Positions 3,301 through 12,220 of a DNA stretch of 64,000 nucleotides are shown one piece after another. The stretch is from Humidesulfovibrio sp. (GTDB lineage Bacteria; Desulfobacterota; Desulfovibrionia; Desulfovibrionales; Desulfovibrionaceae), in assembly GCA_031292175.1 (NCBI GenBank), contig JARLHQ010000017.1:1-64000 (forward strand), in the 5' to 3' direction. A model generated the notes under the pieces. The model was not told the origin of the DNA. It saw only the letters and a list, made by a program, of their open reading frames with translations, and did no database searches. The translations under genes and the position numbers were made by a program. Numbering within the stretch: position 1 is the first letter of the stretch; each line of letters starts with the position of its first letter.

Positions 3301-5065
3301 CTAGCCGCCGCTCTTCAGCCGCTCAATGAGGGCCCGCAGGGTCTGGGTCTGGCGCGCGAGCTCTGTTATGGCCTGGGCGGACTGGGCCATGGCGTTGGCC
3401 GTCTCGCCGGAGATGCGGCTGACCTCTTCAATGCTGCGGTTGATCTCCTCGCTGGCGGCCGACTGCTCCTCGCTGGCGGTGGCGATGCTGCGCACCTGGT
3501 CCGTGGAGACCTCCACCAGCTGCACGATCTCCCTCAGGGCCTCGCCGCTCTTGTTGGCAAGCCCCGTGGCCTCTTCGATGCTGCTCGCCGCGTGTTCCAC
3601 ATTTCCCAGATTCTTCTTCGTGCCGACCTGGATGCCGTGGATGGCGTCCCCGACCTCCTTGGTCGCGGTCATGGTCTTCTCGGCCAGCTTGCGCACCTCG
3701 TCGGCCACGACGGCGAACCCTCGCCCGGCGTCGCCCGCGCGGGCCGCCTCAATGGCGGCGTTCAAGGCCAGCAGATTGGTCTGGTCGGCGATGTCGGAGA
3801 TGACGTTCATGATCTGGCCAATGCCCTCGGCCTGCTTGCCGAGCTCGTCCATATCCAGGCGCATGGTGTTGGACACGCTCTGCACCGTGCCGATGCCAGC
3901 CACCACCTGGCCCACGATCTTGGCGCCGTCCAGGGCCTTGGCCCTGGCGTTCGCGGCCGAATTCGCGGCCTGGGAGGCGCTCTTGGCCACCTCCAGCACC
4001 GTGGCGTTCATCTCCTCCATGGACGTGGACGTGTCGACGAGGCGCTGGGACTCCATTTCGGTGCCCTTGCTCGACTGCTCCACCTGCGCGGAGAGTTCCT
4101 CCGAGGCCGAGCTGATGACCTCCACGACCTTCTCCAACTGCGTGGCCGCAGCGACCATGCCCTCCGCCTTGGCGCGCTCGGCCTGGGCCTTGGCGGCAAC
4201 GGCCTCGTCCGTGGCGATCTTGGCGAGCCGGGCCTGTTCCGCCGCCTCGGCGGTCTTGGCGTCGGCCTCGGCGATCTTGGCCTTCATGGCGCCCACCATG
4301 TCCTGCATGACGGCATAGACGCCGATCTTGAGCTTCTGCGGGCGGAAGGCCACGTCCAGGTCGCCCCCCGCGATCTTGCTGGAGACCTCGTAAAGATACC
4401 AGGGATCCTCGCCCAACTGCCGCGTGACGTCTGTGGTGATGACCAGCCCCAGGCCGATGGAGACGGCAAAACCCAGGGCCATGAGGACATACATCAGCGT
4501 GGCCGCGGCCGCCGCCTGCGAGGAATTGTCCTCCGAGATGCGCTTGCCCTGGTCATTCTTGGCCTTGACCAGCGCGTCTATGGCGTAGCGGACCTTGTTC
4601 GCGTTCTGGCGCACCTCTCCTTGCAACAGGCTGAAGGCCTCATCCGGCTTGCCCTCGTGGACGAGCGTAGCGACCCTGTCCGCCCCCGTAGTCCTCCTGC
4701 GCGGCCCGCAGTTCGCCAAGGGTCTGGCGTTCCTCATCCGTCTGGAGGCTCTTTTCATACTCGGCCAGCTTCACGGGGAACTGGCCCCGGAACAACGTGT
4801 TCTCATCAAGCATCTTCTGCTGCTCTTCGTGCGCCTTCTCCCCCACCAGCACGGCCATGTTCACGCGGTAGCGCTGGAACGTGACGGCGATGTCGCCAAT
4901 ATTGCCCACGGGCACAGTGAGTTTGGAGTACAGAAAAGCGTCGGCGCTATCGAGCTGATGGATTTTTCTGCTGCCGAGAAAACCGATGACCAGGCAGATC
5001 AGGGAGACCAGCAGAAAGCCGGAAATCAGCTTGGTGCGGAGCGTCAACTGGTGGAACAGGTTCAT
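3301..5065 (-). pseudogene. Methyl-accepting chemotaxis protein, interrupted by a frameshift
   Basis: Two minus-strand frames together make one receptor. The first (ATG at 5065, stop at 4640) carries an N-terminal membrane helix (about 12-30) and a four-helix-bundle-like periplasmic domain. The second resumes the same protein through a membrane segment, HAMP-like linker and full signalling domain, with the hairpin-tip motif [18 protein letters not shown] and EVRKLAEKT. The frames meet at a run of five C on the plus strand (4683-4687). Four, or seven, would restore one chain of about 587 residues. No C-terminal CheR-binding pentapeptide is present. This is either a true pseudogene, a slippage-prone site or a sequencing error; the intact remainder favours a recent event. 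Confidence 0.85.
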
Positions 5066-6506: not shown

Positions 6507-6836
6507 ATGACCTATTACGACCCGAAGGACCTGGCCAAATTCGGCGAGATCGGCAAGAACGCGCCTGAAGCGGCCAGAAAGTTTTTCGCCTACTATGAGG
6601 AGGTCTTTGCCGAGGGCGCGCTCACGGAGCGGGAGAAATCGCTCATCGCCCTGGCCGTGGCCCATGCGGTGCAATGCCCGTACTGCATCGACGCCTACAC
6701 CAACGCGTGCCTGGAAAAAGGCTCCAACCCCGACGAGATGACCGAAGCCGTGCATGTGGCCGCGGCCATCCGTGGCGGGGCCACCCTGGTGCATGGGGTG
6801 CAGATGCGCAACATCCTGGACAAGAAGACCATCTAG
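6507..6836 (+). CDS. AhpD/carboxymuconolactone-decarboxylase-fold protein, arsenosugar-associated peroxidase-like
   Basis: 109 residues with the AhpD-type redox motif CPYC (Cys57, Cys60) followed by a helix with DAYTNACLEKG. The fold is that of small alkylhydroperoxidase-like thiol oxidoreductases. The gene starts after AAGGAACACCTC and ends 9 bases before the radical SAM gene, so the two are surely co-transcribed. Proteins of this subfamily sit next to ArsS in many genomes and are named arsenosugar biosynthesis-associated peroxidase-like proteins. The real reaction is not established. Given the neighbour, it may supply or recycle reducing equivalents for the Cys/Sec-rich tail of ArsS (inference). 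Confidence 0.85.
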   Translation: MTYYDPKDLAKFGEIGKNAPEAARKFFAYYEEVFAEGALTEREKSLIALAVAHAVQCPYCIDAYTNACLEKGSNPDEMTEAVHVAAAIRGGATLVHGVQMRNILDKKTI

Positions 6837-6845
6837 GCCGCCGCC

Positions 6846-7787
6846 ATGGAAGCGTTGGACTTTGCCGAAACCCTGGCCCGGCAAGGGCTGGAGTTGCGAA
6901 AAGGCCGGGCCGAGTGCCTGCAGGTCAACGTGGGGGCCCTGTGCAACCTCTCCTGCCGGCATTGCCACCTGGAGGCCGGGCCGGAGCGGACGGACGTCAT
7001 GAGCCGCGCGACCATGGACGAGGTCATCGCCCTGGCCCGGCGCGCCCCTTTCGCCACGGTGGACGTCACCGGCGGCGCGCCGGAACTCAACCCGGACATC
7101 GTACACCTGCTTAAAGGCCTGGGCCCGCTGGCGGCCAAGCGCATCTTCCGCACCAACCTGCTGGCGCTGGAAGGCAAAAGCGGCCTCATGGCCCTGCTTC
7201 TGGCAGACGGCTGGAGCATCGGGGCCTCCTTGCCCGCCGTCAACGCGGGGCAGGTGGAGAGCATCCGGGGCGCGGGGGTGTTTGAGAGAAGCCTGGACAT
7301 GCTGCGCCAGCTCAACGCCCTCGGCTATGGACAGGCGGGCGGGCCGGAACTGCACCTGGTGTCCAACCCCGCCGGCGCTTTTCTGCCCCCGGCGCAGCAC
7401 GCGGCCACCAGGACATTTCGCCAGGCCTTGGAGCGCCGGGCCATCAGCTTCAATTCGCTCTTCGTCTTCGCCAACGTGCCCCTGGGCCGCTTCCAGGCCT
7501 GGCTCACGCGCTCCGGCAATCTGGACGCCTACATGCAGCGGCTGCGCCAGGGCTTCAACCCGGAGGTGGTGTGCGGGCTCATGTGCCGCGCCATCGTCTC
7601 CGTGGCCTGGGACGGCGCGCTTTACGACTGCGACTTCAATCTGGCCGCAGGGCTCCCGTCGAACGGCCCCCGGCATCTGCGCGACTATCTGGCCCACCAG
7701 GAGGGCGCGGCCATTCCCGTGGGCGAGCACTGTTTCGCCTGCACCGCCGGGTCGGGCTTCACCTGAGGCGGCGCGGTGGTGGCCTAG
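6846..7787 (+). CDS. arsS: Radical SAM protein ArsS, probable selenoprotein (UGA 7764-7766 read as Sec)
   Basis: Radical SAM enzyme with CNLSCRHC cluster ligands (Cys33, Cys37, Cys40). The C-terminal Cys-rich domain shows CGLMCR, YDCDFN and HCFACTAGSG. The family, placed in arsenosugar formation, normally ends CTAG(A/S)GSSCGG. Here the frame reads CTAGSGFT, then TGA, then GGAVVA and TAG at 7785-7787. The TGA falls exactly where the conserved Cys should be and the conserved GG follows it. A hairpin lies directly downstream. The protein would be 313 residues with Sec307; termination at the TGA would give 306 residues lacking the conserved tail. This family and its two associated transferases are also known as the rSAM/selenodomain group. 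The recoding is a strong inference, not proven by sequence alone. Confidence 0.85.
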
Positions 7788-7799
7788 TTCAGGCCGCGC
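7767..7799 (+). promoter_or_regulatory. Candidate bacterial SECIS hairpin downstream of the arsS UGA
   Basis: Directly 3' of the UGA, GCGCGG (7771-7776) can pair with CCGCGC (7794-7799). Inside, CCU (7783-7785) pairs with AGG (7791-7793) and closes the apical loop AGUUC; UGGUGG is left as a bulge. The loop contains G and U and lies about 20 bases after the UGA, in the range known for bacterial SECIS elements. The final arsS stop TAG lies inside the structure. Confidence 0.5.
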
Positions 7800-7810
7800 A
7801 AAACCCCGTC

Positions 7811-9274
7811 CTAGCCGTCCACAGGCCTTGGCGCGCAGGCCCGGCCCTTGAGGCCGAACGCATAGTGCAGGGCCTTTTGCACCACGGGGGAGAAAAGCTT
7901 CTCGGCCACGACGCGCCCGGCCACGGCCTTGGCCATCTCGGCGCGCGTGGGGTACGGATGGACGATGCCCGCCAGGGTGGCCAGCGAAACCTTGCCGCCC
8001 AGCACCGCCGCCCACTCGCCCAGAAGCTCGCCCGCGCCCTGCCCGACGATCTGCACGCCCAGCGGCTGGCCATCCTCTCCCAGCAGCAGCTTGAGCCAGC
8101 CGCCGGTCTCGCCCTCGGCCCGCGCCCGGTCATTGTCCGCGAACGCCTCCGTGACCACGCGGTACGCGCGCCCCGCACGCGTGGCCATATCCTCGTTCAG
8201 GCCGATGTGCGCCAGGCCCGGCTCGGTGTAGGTGCACCAGGGCAGACGGGTGTAGTCGGCCTTGCGCGGCAGCCGGAACACGGCGTTCGCCACGATGATG
8301 CCCGCCTCGTACCCGGCGGCGTGGGTGAACTGGTACGCCCCGGTGACGTCGCCGCAGGCGAAGATGTGCGGCCTGCTGGTGCGCATGCGCGCGTCGACGG
8401 CGATGCCCTTGCTGGTGTAAGCCACCCCGGCGTTCTCCAGCCCCAGGTCCGAGACGTTCGGCGCGCGCCCCAGGGCCACCAGGAGGGCGTCCCCGGACAG
8501 GGTCACGCCACGGCCGTCCTGCTCAAACAGCACCTCCGCGCGCCCGCTGGCCCCGCGCACGCTCTGCAGCGCCGCGCCCAGATGGAAGCGCACGCCCTCG
8601 GCCGCGAGGCCCCGCTGCACCTCGGCGGCCATGTCCGCGTCGTCGCGGCTCAGGATGCGCTTGCCGCGCTGGATCACGTCCACCTGTGAGCCCAGGCGGC
8701 GGAAGGCCTGGGCCAGCTCCACGGCGATGGGCCCGCCGCCCAGGATGAGCAGGCGCTCCGGCAGGCGGTCCAGGGAGAAGATCTCGCGGTTGGTCAGGTG
8801 CGGAGTGTCCGCGAGACCCGAAATCGGCGGGATCTGCGCGCGCGAGCCCGTGGCGATGACCCACTTGGCCGCACTGACGCGCTTGCCGTCCACCTCGGCC
8901 ACATGCTCGTCCACAAAACGCGCCGCGCCGAAACGCACCTCGGCCCCCAGGCCGCAGAAACGCTCGATGGAATCTTGGCCCCGGATGTCGGCGATGACCG
9001 CCTGGATGCGCGCGCGCACGCGGGCGAAGTCCACGGGCGGCGGATCGACGGACGGCAGGCCATAGGCTTCGGCCCGCGCCATGACATGCCGGGCCTTGGC
9101 CGTGGCGATGAGGGTCTTGCTCGGCACGCAGCCGTAGAACAGGCAGTCGCCGCCGAGGTGCGCCTCGCGCTCCAGGAGCAGGGTGCGCGCGCCCAGGCGC
9201 GCCGTCCCGGCGGCCACGGAAAGTCCGCCCGCGCCGCCGCCGATGATCGCGATGTCGTAGTCGAATGCCGCCAC
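7811..9274 (-). CDS. FAD-dependent pyridine nucleotide-disulfide oxidoreductase (mercuric reductase / lipoamide dehydrogenase family)
   Basis: 487 residues. The start is a GTG at 9274 with AGGAGG just upstream; earlier in-frame codons lie inside the neighbouring gene. An N-terminal FAD-binding site IIGGGAGGLSVAAG is followed by the redox-active disulfide GGDCLFYGCVPSKTL. An NAD(P)H-binding GGGPIAVELAQAF, the second FAD site FACGDVTGAYQFTHAA, and a C-terminal dimerisation domain with HPYPTRAEM complete the class I architecture. There is no N-terminal HMA domain and no C-terminal vicinal Cys pair, so mercuric reductase activity is unlikely. It lies 13 bases after the TVP38 gene on the same strand, a pairing seen often. 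The substrate is unknown. Confidence 0.88.
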   Translation of the reverse strand: MAAFDYDIAIIGGGAGGLSVAAGTARLGARTLLLEREAHLGGDCLFYGCVPSKTLIATAKARHVMARAEAYGLPSVDPPPVDFARVRARIQAVIADIRGQDSIERFCGLGAEVRFGAARFVDEHVAEVDGKRVSAAKWVIATGSRAQIPPISGLADTPHLTNREIFSLDRLPERLLILGGGPIAVELAQAFRRLGSQVDVIQRGKRILSRDDADMAAEVQRGLAAEGVRFHLGAALQSVRGASGRAEVLFEQDGRGVTLSGDALLVALGRAPNVSDLGLENAGVAYTSKGIAVDARMRTSRPHIFACGDVTGAYQFTHAAGYEAGIIVANAVFRLPRKADYTRLPWCTYTEPGLAHIGLNEDMATRAGRAYRVVTEAFADNDRARAEGETGGWLKLLLGEDGQPLGVQIVGQGAGELLGEWAAVLGGKVSLATLAGIVHPYPTRAEMAKAVAGRVVAEKLFSPVVQKALHYAFGLKGRACAPRPVDG

Positions 9275-9287
9275 AGGAACCTCCTGT

Positions 9288-10004
9288 TCAGAGCTGTCTG
9301 CGTCTCCGCAGCCAGGATACCAGCCAACGCGCCGAAAGCGGAAACAGCCCCAGCAAGGCGAAGGCCACGAACAGGCCGGGGGAAAGGATGCCGGACAGGG
9401 AATCCACCTGGGCCAGGCGCGTGCCCGCGTAGACGAAGACCAGGGTGCCGGGGAGCATCCCGGCCTGGGACACCCAGGCATAGGTGCGCACGGGCATGGG
9501 GGTCAGCCCCATGAGCGGATTGATGATGAAGTATGGCAGGGCCGGGATGAGCCGCATGGTGAACAGGTAGAAGGAGCCCTCGCGCGCGATGCCCTGGTTG
9601 ACCGGCGCCAGAAGCGCGCCGAAACGCTCCTGGACCCAGCGGCGCAAGAGGTAACGGGCGGAGAGGCAGGCCAGCACCGCCCCCAGGGTGCTGGCGAAGG
9701 AGGCCAGCAGCACGCCCTCCAGAAGCCCGAACAATGCGCCCCCGGCCGCGGTCAGCACTCCCGCGCCGGGAAGTCCCAGGCCGGAGAGGGCCACATAGGC
9801 CGCGAAGAACCCCGCCGCCGAGGCCCAGGGACGCGCGTCCACCCATTGCCGCAACGCGCCCAGGGAGGCCTTCAGGGCGGGCAGGGTCAGCCGTTCGTGC
9901 AGGCCCAAGGCGAAAAAGGCGACAACGCCCAGGGCCAGCGCGGCGGCCAGGGTGATCCTGGCGGCGGTTCCGCTGCGCGCGGAAGGTGTAAGGAGATGAG
10001 CCAT
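9288..10004 (-). CDS. TVP38/TMEM64 (DedA/VTT-like) family inner membrane protein
   Basis: 238 residues with about five to six membrane segments, the VTT-domain pattern GLPGAGVLTAAGGALFG and a conserved FTMRLIPALPYFIINPLMG stretch. The family acts in membrane lipid handling, probably scramblase-like. The ATG at 10004 is used; longer readings run into the opposite-strand glycosyltransferase. It is transcribed divergently from that gene with an 82-base gap and is followed closely by the FAD oxidoreductase. No transport substrate can be read from the sequence. Confidence 0.85.
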   Translation of the reverse strand: MAHLLTPSARSGTAARITLAAALALGVVAFFALGLHERLTLPALKASLGALRQWVDARPWASAAGFFAAYVALSGLGLPGAGVLTAAGGALFGLLEGVLLASFASTLGAVLACLSARYLLRRWVQERFGALLAPVNQGIAREGSFYLFTMRLIPALPYFIINPLMGLTPMPVRTYAWVSQAGMLPGTLVFVYAGTRLAQVDSLSGILSPGLFVAFALLGLFPLSARWLVSWLRRRRQL

Positions 10005-10086: not shown

Positions 10087-10788
10087 ATGGTCCGCAGCAG
10101 GTTTTCCGTCATCATCCCCGTGTACCGGGAAGAAGCGCGCATCGCCGCGCTGCTCGCCCATGTGGCGGGTCTCCCCGTTCCCGGCGGCGCGGAGATTCTG
10201 GTGGTGGACGGCGATCCGCAGCAACGCACCCTGGCGGCCGTCCCGGAGGGGGCGGCCCTCAGCCTGGCCGCCGCCAAGGGCCGGGCCCGCCAGATGAATG
10301 CCGGAGCCCGGGCCTCGCATGGGGATGTCCTGCTCTTTCTGCATGCGGACACGCGCCTGCCCGCGGACGCCTTCACGCGCGCCACGGCCTGTCTTGCCGA
10401 CCCCGGCATCGGCGGCGGGGCCTTTAGCCTGCGCATTGAGGCCACGGAAGGGGCGGCTGGCCCGGGCCTGCGCTTCATCGCCTGGGCGGCGAACCTGCGC
10501 GCGCGGCTCTCCCGGGCGCCTTACGGCGACCAGGCCATCTTTCTGCGCCGCGACGTCTTCATGGCCCTGGGCGGATTCCCAGACATCCCGCTCATGGAGG
10601 ACCTGGAGCTCATGACCCGCCTGCGCCGCTCCGGGGGGCGCATCCGCATCCTGGACGCCTATGCGGCGACTTCGGCCCGGCGCTGGGAGCGGGAGGGACT
10701 GCTGCGCTGCACCGGCCGCAACGTGCTGCTGCGCACCCTCTACCATCTGGGCGTCCCGGCGCGCAGGCTGGCGGAGTTCTACCGATGA
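10087..10788 (+). CDS. GT2-like transferase, rSAM/selenodomain-associated transferase 2 type (TIGR04283)
   Basis: 233 residues. The family-2 nucleotide-sugar transferase signature SVIIPVYREE is at the N-terminus, with ILVVDGDP and the metal-binding region FLHADTRLP. The acceptor region has GDQAIFLRRDVF and a MEDLELMTRL acidic motif. The family co-occurs with ArsS-type radical SAM proteins and is named in arsenosugar biosynthesis annotations. The start at 10087 was chosen because the conserved fold begins immediately and the longer frame overlaps the divergent promoter region. Its TGA overlaps the ATG of the next gene by 4 bases, so the two transferases are translationally coupled. Confidence 0.87.
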   Translation: MVRSRFSVIIPVYREEARIAALLAHVAGLPVPGGAEILVVDGDPQQRTLAAVPEGAALSLAAAKGRARQMNAGARASHGDVLLFLHADTRLPADAFTRATACLADPGIGGGAFSLRIEATEGAAGPGLRFIAWAANLRARLSRAPYGDQAIFLRRDVFMALGGFPDIPLMEDLELMTRLRRSGGRIRILDAYAATSARRWEREGLLRCTGRNVLLRTLYHLGVPARRLAEFYR

Positions 10789-11456
10789 GACGGATCATCG
10801 TGTTCCTCAAGTATCCCGAGCCAGGGCGGGTCAAGACGCGGCTGGCGGCGGCGGTCGGCATCGAGGCGGCGGCGCGGCTGGCCCGGCATTTTGCCGAGGA
10901 GACCCTGGCGGCGGTCCGGCAACTGGGTCTGCCGGTGGAGATCTGCTTCGCCCCGGCGGAGCGGGAAGCGGAGGTCCGCGCCTGGCTGGGCCAGAGCGGC
11001 ACGTACGCTCCGCAGCATGGGGCGGACCTGGGCGAGCGCATGCGAAACGCCTTTATCGAGGCCTTCCGCCAGGGCGCCGAACGCGTGGTGCTGGTGGGCA
11101 CGGACGCGCCCGACCGCCCGGTGGAATTTCTGAGCGAAGCGTTGGCACGGCTGGCGGACCACGACGCGGTCCTTGGCCCGGCCCTGGACGGCGGCTACCA
11201 CCTCATCGCCATGCGCCGCGCGGGATTCACACCCGCGGCCTTCGCCGGGATCGCCTGGAGCACCCCCCGGGTGCTGGCCCAGACCATTGAGGCGCTGCGC
11301 CGGGCCGGGCGCTTGACCCATGTGCTCCCGCCCTGGCGGGATATCGATGACCGCGCCGGGCTGGACGCTTACATGGAGCGGCATCCCCGGGTGGCGGGCC
11401 TGCTGCGGGATGACGGAACATTCGTCCGGGGGGAGCCATGCCGAATGAAGGCCTGA
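10785..11456 (+). CDS. DUF2064-type transferase, rSAM/selenodomain-associated transferase 1 (TIGR04282)
   Basis: 223 residues with a nucleotidyltransferase-like (GT-A) fold: FLKYPEPGRVKTRLAAAVG at the N-terminus, VLVGTDAPDRP in the middle and LGPALDGGYHLIA. The family pairs with transferase 2 and ArsS. A role in activating or attaching the sugar part of an arsenosugar-like product is inferred from neighbourhood only. The ATG overlaps the preceding stop by 4 bases, and its own 3' end overlaps the hydroxylase-like gene by 19 bases, so these three genes form one transcription unit. Confidence 0.87.
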   Translation: MRRIIVFLKYPEPGRVKTRLAAAVGIEAAARLARHFAEETLAAVRQLGLPVEICFAPAEREAEVRAWLGQSGTYAPQHGADLGERMRNAFIEAFRQGAERVVLVGTDAPDRPVEFLSEALARLADHDAVLGPALDGGYHLIAMRRAGFTPAAFAGIAWSTPRVLAQTIEALRRAGRLTHVLPPWRDIDDRAGLDAYMERHPRVAGLLRDDGTFVRGEPCRMKA

Positions 11457-12220
11457 TACGCCTGAGCGCCTTTCTTGGCGCGGCCCTGGCCCTGATGCTC
11501 TGGGAGGTCCTGGCCCCGCGCCTTGAGCGTCCGGCCTTGCGGGGCCTGCGCTGGCCAGGCAACCTCGCCCTGGTCGCCCTGTCCACGCTGCTCATCCGCC
11601 TGCTCTTTCCGGTTCTGCCCGTCGGTCTTGCGCTCTGGGCGCGGGGCCAGGGCTGGGGGCTTTTGAACGCCCTGCCGCTTCCCGAACCCGTCGGGGGACT
11701 CGCCGCCATTGCGCTCCTGGACCTCGCCATCTACGGCCAGCACGTGGCGGCGCACCGCCTGCGCTGGTTCTGGAGGCTGCACCGGGTGCACCACGCGGAC
11801 ACGGTGCTGGACGTGACCACGGCGGTGCGCTTCCACCCGCTGGAGATGCTGCTCTCCCTGACCTACAAGCTGTGCCTGGTGCTGGCGCTGGGCCCTCCGG
11901 CCTGGGCCGTGCTCGCCTTCGAGCTTCTGCTCAACGCCTTGCCCCTCTTCAACCACGCCAACGTGCGCCTGCCGCTCCCCGTCGACCGGGCCCTGCGCCT
12001 GGCCGTCGTCACCCCGGACATGCACCGCGTGCACCACAGCGTGGACCCGCGCGAGGCGAACACCAACTTCGGCTTCTGCTTCCCCTGGTGGGACAGGCTC
12101 TTCGGCACATACCAGGATCAGCCCGCGACCGGTCACGAGGGCATGGGCATCGGCCTGGGCATCTTCCGTGACAAATCCTGGACCGGGCTGTGGGGACTCC
12201 TGCGCATCCCCTTCCACTGA
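11438..12220 (+). CDS. Fatty acid hydroxylase / sterol desaturase superfamily membrane protein
   Basis: 260 residues with several membrane segments and the histidine clusters of integral-membrane di-iron oxygenases: HVAAHRLRWFWRLHRVHH, HPLEM and HRVHHSVDP, followed by NTNFGFCFPWWDRLFGTY, typical of bacterial members. Enzymes of this superfamily use O2 to hydroxylate or desaturate lipids. It overlaps the upstream transferase gene by 19 bases, which ties it to the arsenosugar-type cluster and hints at a lipid-linked product (inference). A dioxygen-dependent enzyme is notable if the host is an anaerobe, but such proteins do occur in sulfate reducers. Confidence 0.85.
   Translation: MPNEGLIRLSAFLGAALALMLWEVLAPRLERPALRGLRWPGNLALVALSTLLIRLLFPVLPVGLALWARGQGWGLLNALPLPEPVGGLAAIALLDLAIYGQHVAAHRLRWFWRLHRVHHADTVLDVTTAVRFHPLEMLLSLTYKLCLVLALGPPAWAVLAFELLLNALPLFNHANVRLPLPVDRALRLAVVTPDMHRVHHSVDPREANTNFGFCFPWWDRLFGTYQDQPATGHEGMGIGLGIFRDKSWTGLWGLLRIPFH

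Follow-up and report, generated by a model that had tools for sequence, protein, structure and literature searches.

Radical SAM proteins of the family TIGR04167 (rSAM_SeCys, ArsS) have been counted among the predicted prokaryotic selenoproteins (PMC9312934), and a list within PMC13188914 gives the family as a prokaryotic selenoprotein with the motif GxxU. The passages on SECIS elements in PMC13188914 describe the bacterial form as a hairpin just 3' of the UGA codon whose first two loop nucleotides include a G. As for the chemistry, PMC12159101 attributes the adenosylation of arsenic on the way to oxo-arsenosugars to radical SAM enzymes.

The stretch of DNA analyzed here (the window; 64,000 nucleotides from Humidesulfovibrio sp.) carries an arsS gene that shares with TIGR04167 (example AAR34688.1, GxxU) both a full-length match and the Sec motif, here GFTU. 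We found no difference of substance from that family, AAR34688.1 being compared by its listing. Because Sec in some ArsS proteins had already been predicted, the window gene is very probably a well-supported but ordinary new example. The Cys-containing proteins of the GSSC subfamily belong to the same family and carry Cys at the same column, but those that we aligned are only about 38–50% identical to the window protein. With the general bacterial SECIS model the window hairpin shares its placement just after the UGA and a G among the first two nucleotides of the loop. It departs from that model in that the border of its loop falls on the stop codon and its 3' arm lies past the coding sequence, whereas the SECIS passages of PMC13188914 have these elements in coding regions.

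The TGA codon at position 307 of ArsS

The original prediction held that arsS appears to be a selenoprotein gene whose frame ends in CTAGSGFT, crosses a TGA and continues through GGAVVA to a nearby TAG. All of these elements are present in the sequence, where the frame 6846–7763 ends in CFACTAGSGFT (Table 1). In a profile search the open reading frame up to the TGA (6846–7766) matched TIGR04167 with 325.6 bits and ended at model position 297 of 303. Read through the TGA, with C in place of U, the protein scored 336.1 bits and covered positions 2–303 of 303 (curated cut-off of 300 bits). Read-through thus completes the model from 297 to 303, which argues that the codons 3' of the TGA belong to the ArsS family. 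A scan of the window for further TGA read-through candidates listed 58 frames, most of which look like shadow frames on inspection.

Table 1. Positions in the window of arsS, its recoding signals and the neighboring arsenosugar-associated genes
Feature	Position	Strand	Basis or description
TIGR04169 arsenosugar-associated peroxidase-like (CMD/AhpD) gene	6507..6836	+	193.6 bits, cut-off 120
arsS, predicted arsenosugar-biosynthesis radical SAM selenoprotein	6846..7787, including TAG stop	+	313 aa with Sec307; TIGR04167, Pfam, homologues
Predicted Sec codon TGA, position 307	7764..7766	+	codon comparison across 110 loci
TAG, real stop codon	7785..7787	+	straddles the stem-loop border of the putative SECIS hairpin
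Putative SECIS hairpin	7779..7797	+	7-bp stem, loop AGUUC at 7786–7790, 19 nt 3' of the TGA
TIGR04283 arsenosugar biosynthesis glycosyltransferase	10090..10788 (start as scanned; ORF opens at 10003)	+	231.7 bits, cut-off 182
TIGR04282 arsenosugar biosynthesis glycosyltransferase	10785..11456	+	200.1 bits, cut-off 134

ArsS is present in 39 of the 297 genomes of the window's order, the window's own genome included. In this order-wide search, 15 copies from 14 genomes had one TGA within the match and 26 copies from 25 genomes had none. We compared codons across 110 loci, comprising 30 of the 41 order matches and the best 80 of at least 591 relatives among named genomes; because only the best 80 were taken, the set is biased to near relatives. 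Codon 307 was TGA in 29 loci, TGC or TGT in 80, and unreadable in one (L122, at a contig end), so that TAA, TAG or any other residue occurred at this position in none of the 109 readable loci. For two of the 29 TGA loci (L091 and L094), which have altered tails, position 307 was assigned by hand and not by motif. L094 has apparently lost the CxxC that precedes its Sec codon (at about 3813–3975), possibly through decay or an assembly error.

The alignment places the TGA exactly on the Cys column of the family, as predicted. The family ending CTAG(A/S)GSSCGG given with that prediction needs correction, since it is the Cys subfamily that ends in GSSCGG, while the window's own subfamily reads GFT-U-GG. 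Beyond position 307 the tail is similar in the Sec and Cys forms: the first residue is Gly in 25 of the 29 TGA loci and 65 of the 80 Cys loci, and the second is Gly in 109 of 109. A gene caller that halts at the TGA loses the very residue at which all 109 readable loci have either Sec or Cys.

One alternative is that the TGA is an ordinary stop, that the protein ends at Thr306, and that the next six codons reflect decay or coincidence in a lineage without Sec decoding. The use of stop codons speaks against this. Final stops are TAG in 18, TAA in 31 and TGA in 31 members of the Cys group, and TAG in 14, TAA in 2 and TGA in 13 members of the Sec group. Because true gene ends use all three stops, a column 307 in which 29 of 29 stops are TGA is unlike ordinary termination, although common descent makes the counts of TGA loci non-independent and would leave a formal probability for the all-TGA column without meaning. 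The conserved tail is likewise at odds with an ordinary stop. The final stop lies exactly 6 codons past position 307 in 22 of the 29 TGA loci, which places it at the apical loop of the hairpin in its usual form. In the 13 TGA loci (of 29) with UGA also as the final stop, two UGA codons would have to be read differently within one short tail.

Within the window's order, the TGA form occurs in 14 genomes under four family codes, and named records under the titles Desulfobacterales, Desulfarculaceae, Syntrophaceae and Nitrospirae carry it as well. Two contigs from a viral collection (L158 and L159) encode partial ArsS relatives.

The downstream hairpin and the Sec and Cys clades

We coded published rules for bacterial SECIS elements (PMC13188914) as a set of constraints: a loop of 3–9 nt, a stem of 4–16 bp, a G in the first two loop nucleotides, a spacing of 16–37 nt and a minimum free energy of at most -7.5 kcal/mol, with a strict version that asks for GG or GU in the loop. 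The window hairpin satisfies them, with its AGUUC loop, a spacing of 19 and -13.3 kcal/mol when folded with flanks (the 19-mer gives -10.6 kcal/mol). A hairpin with this loop had been predicted at 7771–7799; it can form, but its 7-bp stem (7779–7785 paired with 7791–7797) is shorter than that interval implies. A search of Rfam returned no match at 7500–8100, up to an E-value of 1.

The strict constraints were satisfied by 22 of the 29 TGA loci, by only 10 of the 80 Cys loci (Fisher p 7e-10 for TGA versus Cys loci) and by 20 of 145 shuffled tails. A looser loop rule weakens the contrast to 22 of 29 TGA versus 20 of 80 Cys loci. Seven of the 29 TGA loci failed the automatic test, and in L012 and L017 the hairpin that passed differs from the hand-anchored one. 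The usual core of the hairpin is CCUGAGUUCAGG, and that of the window's group is CCUAGUUCAGG.

In order to assess whether the two arms vary together, we counted pairing at the flanking positions in registers of 18–20 nt. On average 6.1 of 7 positions are paired in TGA tails, compared with 4.3 in Cys tails. When the 3' arms were exchanged among the TGA sequences, the mean was 5.0 (sd 0.13) and the observed 6.1 was reached in 0 of 2000 exchanges. A covariation count in a single register covered 10 of the 29 TGA tails, namely the ones in which the loop is a 4-nt AGUU and the spacing is 20. Here 90% of cells were paired compared with 75.8% in shuffles, and 11 cells had changed on both sides compared with 4.1; pairs changed on both sides numbered 3 versus 2.3 (one of five measures, not above the shuffles). 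Hand-chosen hairpin registers lean toward pairing, and the arm-swap and 10-tail counts are the controlled ones. A gap-free alignment of 25 loci (without L012 and L018–L020, for their spacing) was left out of the counts because two registers were out of step in it.

The fold of the window sequence itself is ordinary, and this weakness is one of the points in favor of an ordinary stop. Folding of 7764–7804, which had been suggested as a check of the prediction, did not set it apart from shuffled sequences (z -0.34; 69 of 200 shuffles were as good), and we rejected single-sequence folding as SECIS evidence. The minimum-energy fold of this segment is a different pairing, at -13.2 compared with -10.6 kcal/mol for the AGUUC hairpin, whose probability is 0.94 in a 60-nt context that starts at the TGA and 0.07 in one that starts 12 nt later. 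Across the TGA loci, the anchored hairpin has a probability of at least 0.5 in 22 of 29 with the context from the TGA and in 27 of 29 with the context 12 nt later. Because the stem covaries among relatives while the window fold is ordinary, the hairpin is supported by comparison and not by the window fold alone. Such covariation is not expected of a decaying or coincidental tail.

A tree of ArsS, computed from 86 of the 110 loci with the tail excluded and by a quick method without bootstrap (L023 and L128 fall at zero distance), places 24 of the 26 Sec members and 2 Cys members in one clade (support 100, starred). The Cys members fall mostly into a separate clade (100, starred), in which 58 Cys members are joined by 2 Sec members, L134 and L153, and the tree needs four changes of state between Sec and Cys. 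The two Cys members within the Sec clade (L080 and L088, with GFTC) appear to be changes from Sec to Cys; by eye, no obvious SECIS remnant was found in either.

The window gene groups with genes of its own genus that are 67–78% identical to it, all with TGA, while Cys-type ArsS in other species of the genus is about 49–50% identical. Within the genus, the Sec type occurs in G111, G192 and G251, and the Cys type in G084, G212 and G005; five further congeners that were searched gave no ArsS match. Replacement or horizontal transfer likely explains the occurrence of the Sec type and a distant Cys type across congeners.

Selenocysteine machinery in the assembly and its relatives

The prediction that arsS encodes a selenoprotein would be weakened by a genome without sel genes, and on its face this is partly the case here. 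selD is present and itself has an in-frame TGA, but searches of the window's assembly (2.6 Mb in 32 contigs, 81% complete) brought up no selA, selB or tRNA-Sec. The seven matches to the tRNA-Sec model are tRNAs for Trp, Ser (three), Gly, Tyr and Leu according to ARAGORN, including the top match (47.3, gathering score 47), which is a tRNA-Trp. The best SelB match scored 195 bits, below the cut-off of 242, and was not accepted as SelB. This absence counts in favor of the TGA being an ordinary stop in a lineage that has lost Sec decoding.

Against this, we searched 44 genomes for the Sec machinery, consisting of the window's own, 38 further genomes that carry ArsS and five congeners that gave no ArsS match. 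tRNA-Sec was found in 43 of the 43 relatives, selB in 41 and selA in 41, and all three are present in 33 of 33 high-quality relatives. Among the 14 genomes with the TGA type, the searches missed selB in the window's own and in G050, selA in the window's own, G293 and G047, and tRNA-Sec in the window's own only. A 20-kb stretch around the tRNA-Sec of G111 has a partial or whole match in each of the 10 other congeners, over about 5.7 kb or more, and no match anywhere in the window's assembly. Similarly, the selAB stretch of G111 is 77–81% identical to that of G192, while the window's assembly has only scattered matches to it of 64–75%; for scale, the window and G111 share 81% identity over the ArsS region. 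Both the tRNA-Sec and the selAB stretch are thus absent together with their flanks. Entire blocks have dropped out, as happens when an assembly is incomplete, and not just the sel genes. The absence of selA, selB and tRNA-Sec is probably an assembly gap.

The assembly retains three formate dehydrogenase (FdhA) genes as well as selD, each with one in-frame TGA, although the TGA of L067 rests on one line of evidence. In two of the FdhA genes and in SelD, the TGA lies at what we take to be known Sec sites. Given that the sel blocks are missing along with their flanks and that four other genes with in-frame TGA codons are kept, we infer that the window organism decodes Sec. Together with the stop usage, the conserved tail and the covarying hairpin, the same two observations make it very improbable that the TGA of arsS is an ordinary stop. 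That the UGA is instead read as Cys or another residue, through suppression or a changed code, is suggested by the Cys that relatives carry at position 307, but is extremely improbable in view of the TGA that also ends 13 of the 29 TGA loci, the tRNA-Sec of all 43 relatives searched, the SECIS-like hairpin 3' of the TGA, and the TGA codons of two FdhA genes and SelD at presumed Sec sites.

Taken with the position of the TGA on the Cys column, the conserved tail and the comparative evidence for the hairpin, these results bear out the claim that arsS is a selenoprotein gene, and on this comparison of sequences we consider it highly probable that the UGA at 7764–7766 is decoded as selenocysteine. 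SelB, Sec-tRNA and the SECIS hairpin, with its apical loop 19 nt downstream, would let the ribosome read this codon as selenocysteine. The ribosome would then add GGAVVA after Sec307 and halt at the UAG.

Gene neighborhood and the possible role of Sec307

The window arsS lies in an arsenosugar neighborhood, with TIGR04169, TIGR04283 and TIGR04282 genes within 4 kb. The TIGR04169 gene ends 9 bp before arsS, and an MsrAB gene lies upstream. The original prediction drew support from the "selenodomain" name of the neighboring transferases. We do not count this as independent evidence: NCBIfam now calls them arsenosugar biosynthesis glycosyltransferases, and the older name presumably arose from association with the same ArsS family. 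TIGR04282-like genes were found near 27 of the 80 Cys loci and TIGR04283-like genes near 21. Elsewhere in the window's own assembly there is an ArsM (321 bits, cut-off 263). The end of the TIGR04282 gene is overlapped by a fatty-acid-hydroxylase-like gene (11438–12217) with a weak match to OlsE (68.6 bits, cut-off 475); a link of this gene to arsenolipids would be speculation.

The protein has Radical_SAM (PF04055) and DUF3641 (PF12345) domains in Pfam. C33, C37 and C40, which form the CxxxCxxC radical SAM site by motif, do not vary in either of two alignments (30 of 30 and 57 of 57 rows), and C247, C262, C296 and C299 are invariant as well. The predicted structure has a mean pLDDT of 94.3, with a weakly predicted tail (63 for residues 301–310 and 41 for residues 311–313). 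Structures similar to it include radical SAM enzymes, SkfB among them (best TM-score 0.60 by query and 0.50 by target, rmsd 6.5), and several of the structural matches are, as we understand them, SPASM/twitch enzymes. The four C-terminal cysteines may bind an auxiliary cluster. The product would thus be a radical SAM enzyme with the CxxxCxxC site, a domain with these four cysteines, and a tail that carries Sec307.

ArsS was reportedly the subject of a study by Cheng et al. in 2021 (Angew. Chem.), and a partial search of the literature brought up none that addresses what Sec does in ArsS. Most likely, the window ArsS adenosylates dimethylated arsenic made by ArsM. On this same most likely reading, the selenol of Sec307 would hold or activate the trivalent arsenic that the 5'-deoxyadenosyl radical attacks, a thiol taking this part in Cys-type relatives. 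The high probability that we assign to Sec decoding does not extend to this arsenic chemistry.

Alternatively, Sec307 could be non-catalytic, acting as a redox switch or as a docking tail through which the enzyme is re-reduced, for instance with the neighboring CMD/AhpD-like protein. This concerns the role of Sec and not its decoding, and we regard it as a real, if minority, possibility. A TIGR04169-like CMD gene flanks 24 of the 28 other TGA loci, and the low pLDDT of the tail may mean mobility. However, the presence of Cys or Sec in every readable locus is stricter than one would expect of a docking tail, and the CMD gene, which flanks 47 of the 80 Cys loci, was undetected near the other 33 (with short flanks and incomplete detection).

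A specific form of the catalytic role, which we consider rather unlikely as it stands, is that Sec307 serves as an arsenic handle. Its selenolate would bind dimethylarsenous acid, presenting Se-AsMe2 on a mobile tail; homolytic substitution at the arsenic by the 5'-deoxyadenosyl radical would then release a selanyl radical, to be reduced via an auxiliary Fe-S cluster or the CxxC. If true, this would place selenocysteine directly in radical carbon-arsenic bond formation, with the Cys lineages as the natural comparison. The ArsS family is thought to form carbon-arsenic bonds, and the occurrence of GFT-Sec and GSS-Cys clades in one genus allows Sec and Cys to be compared directly.
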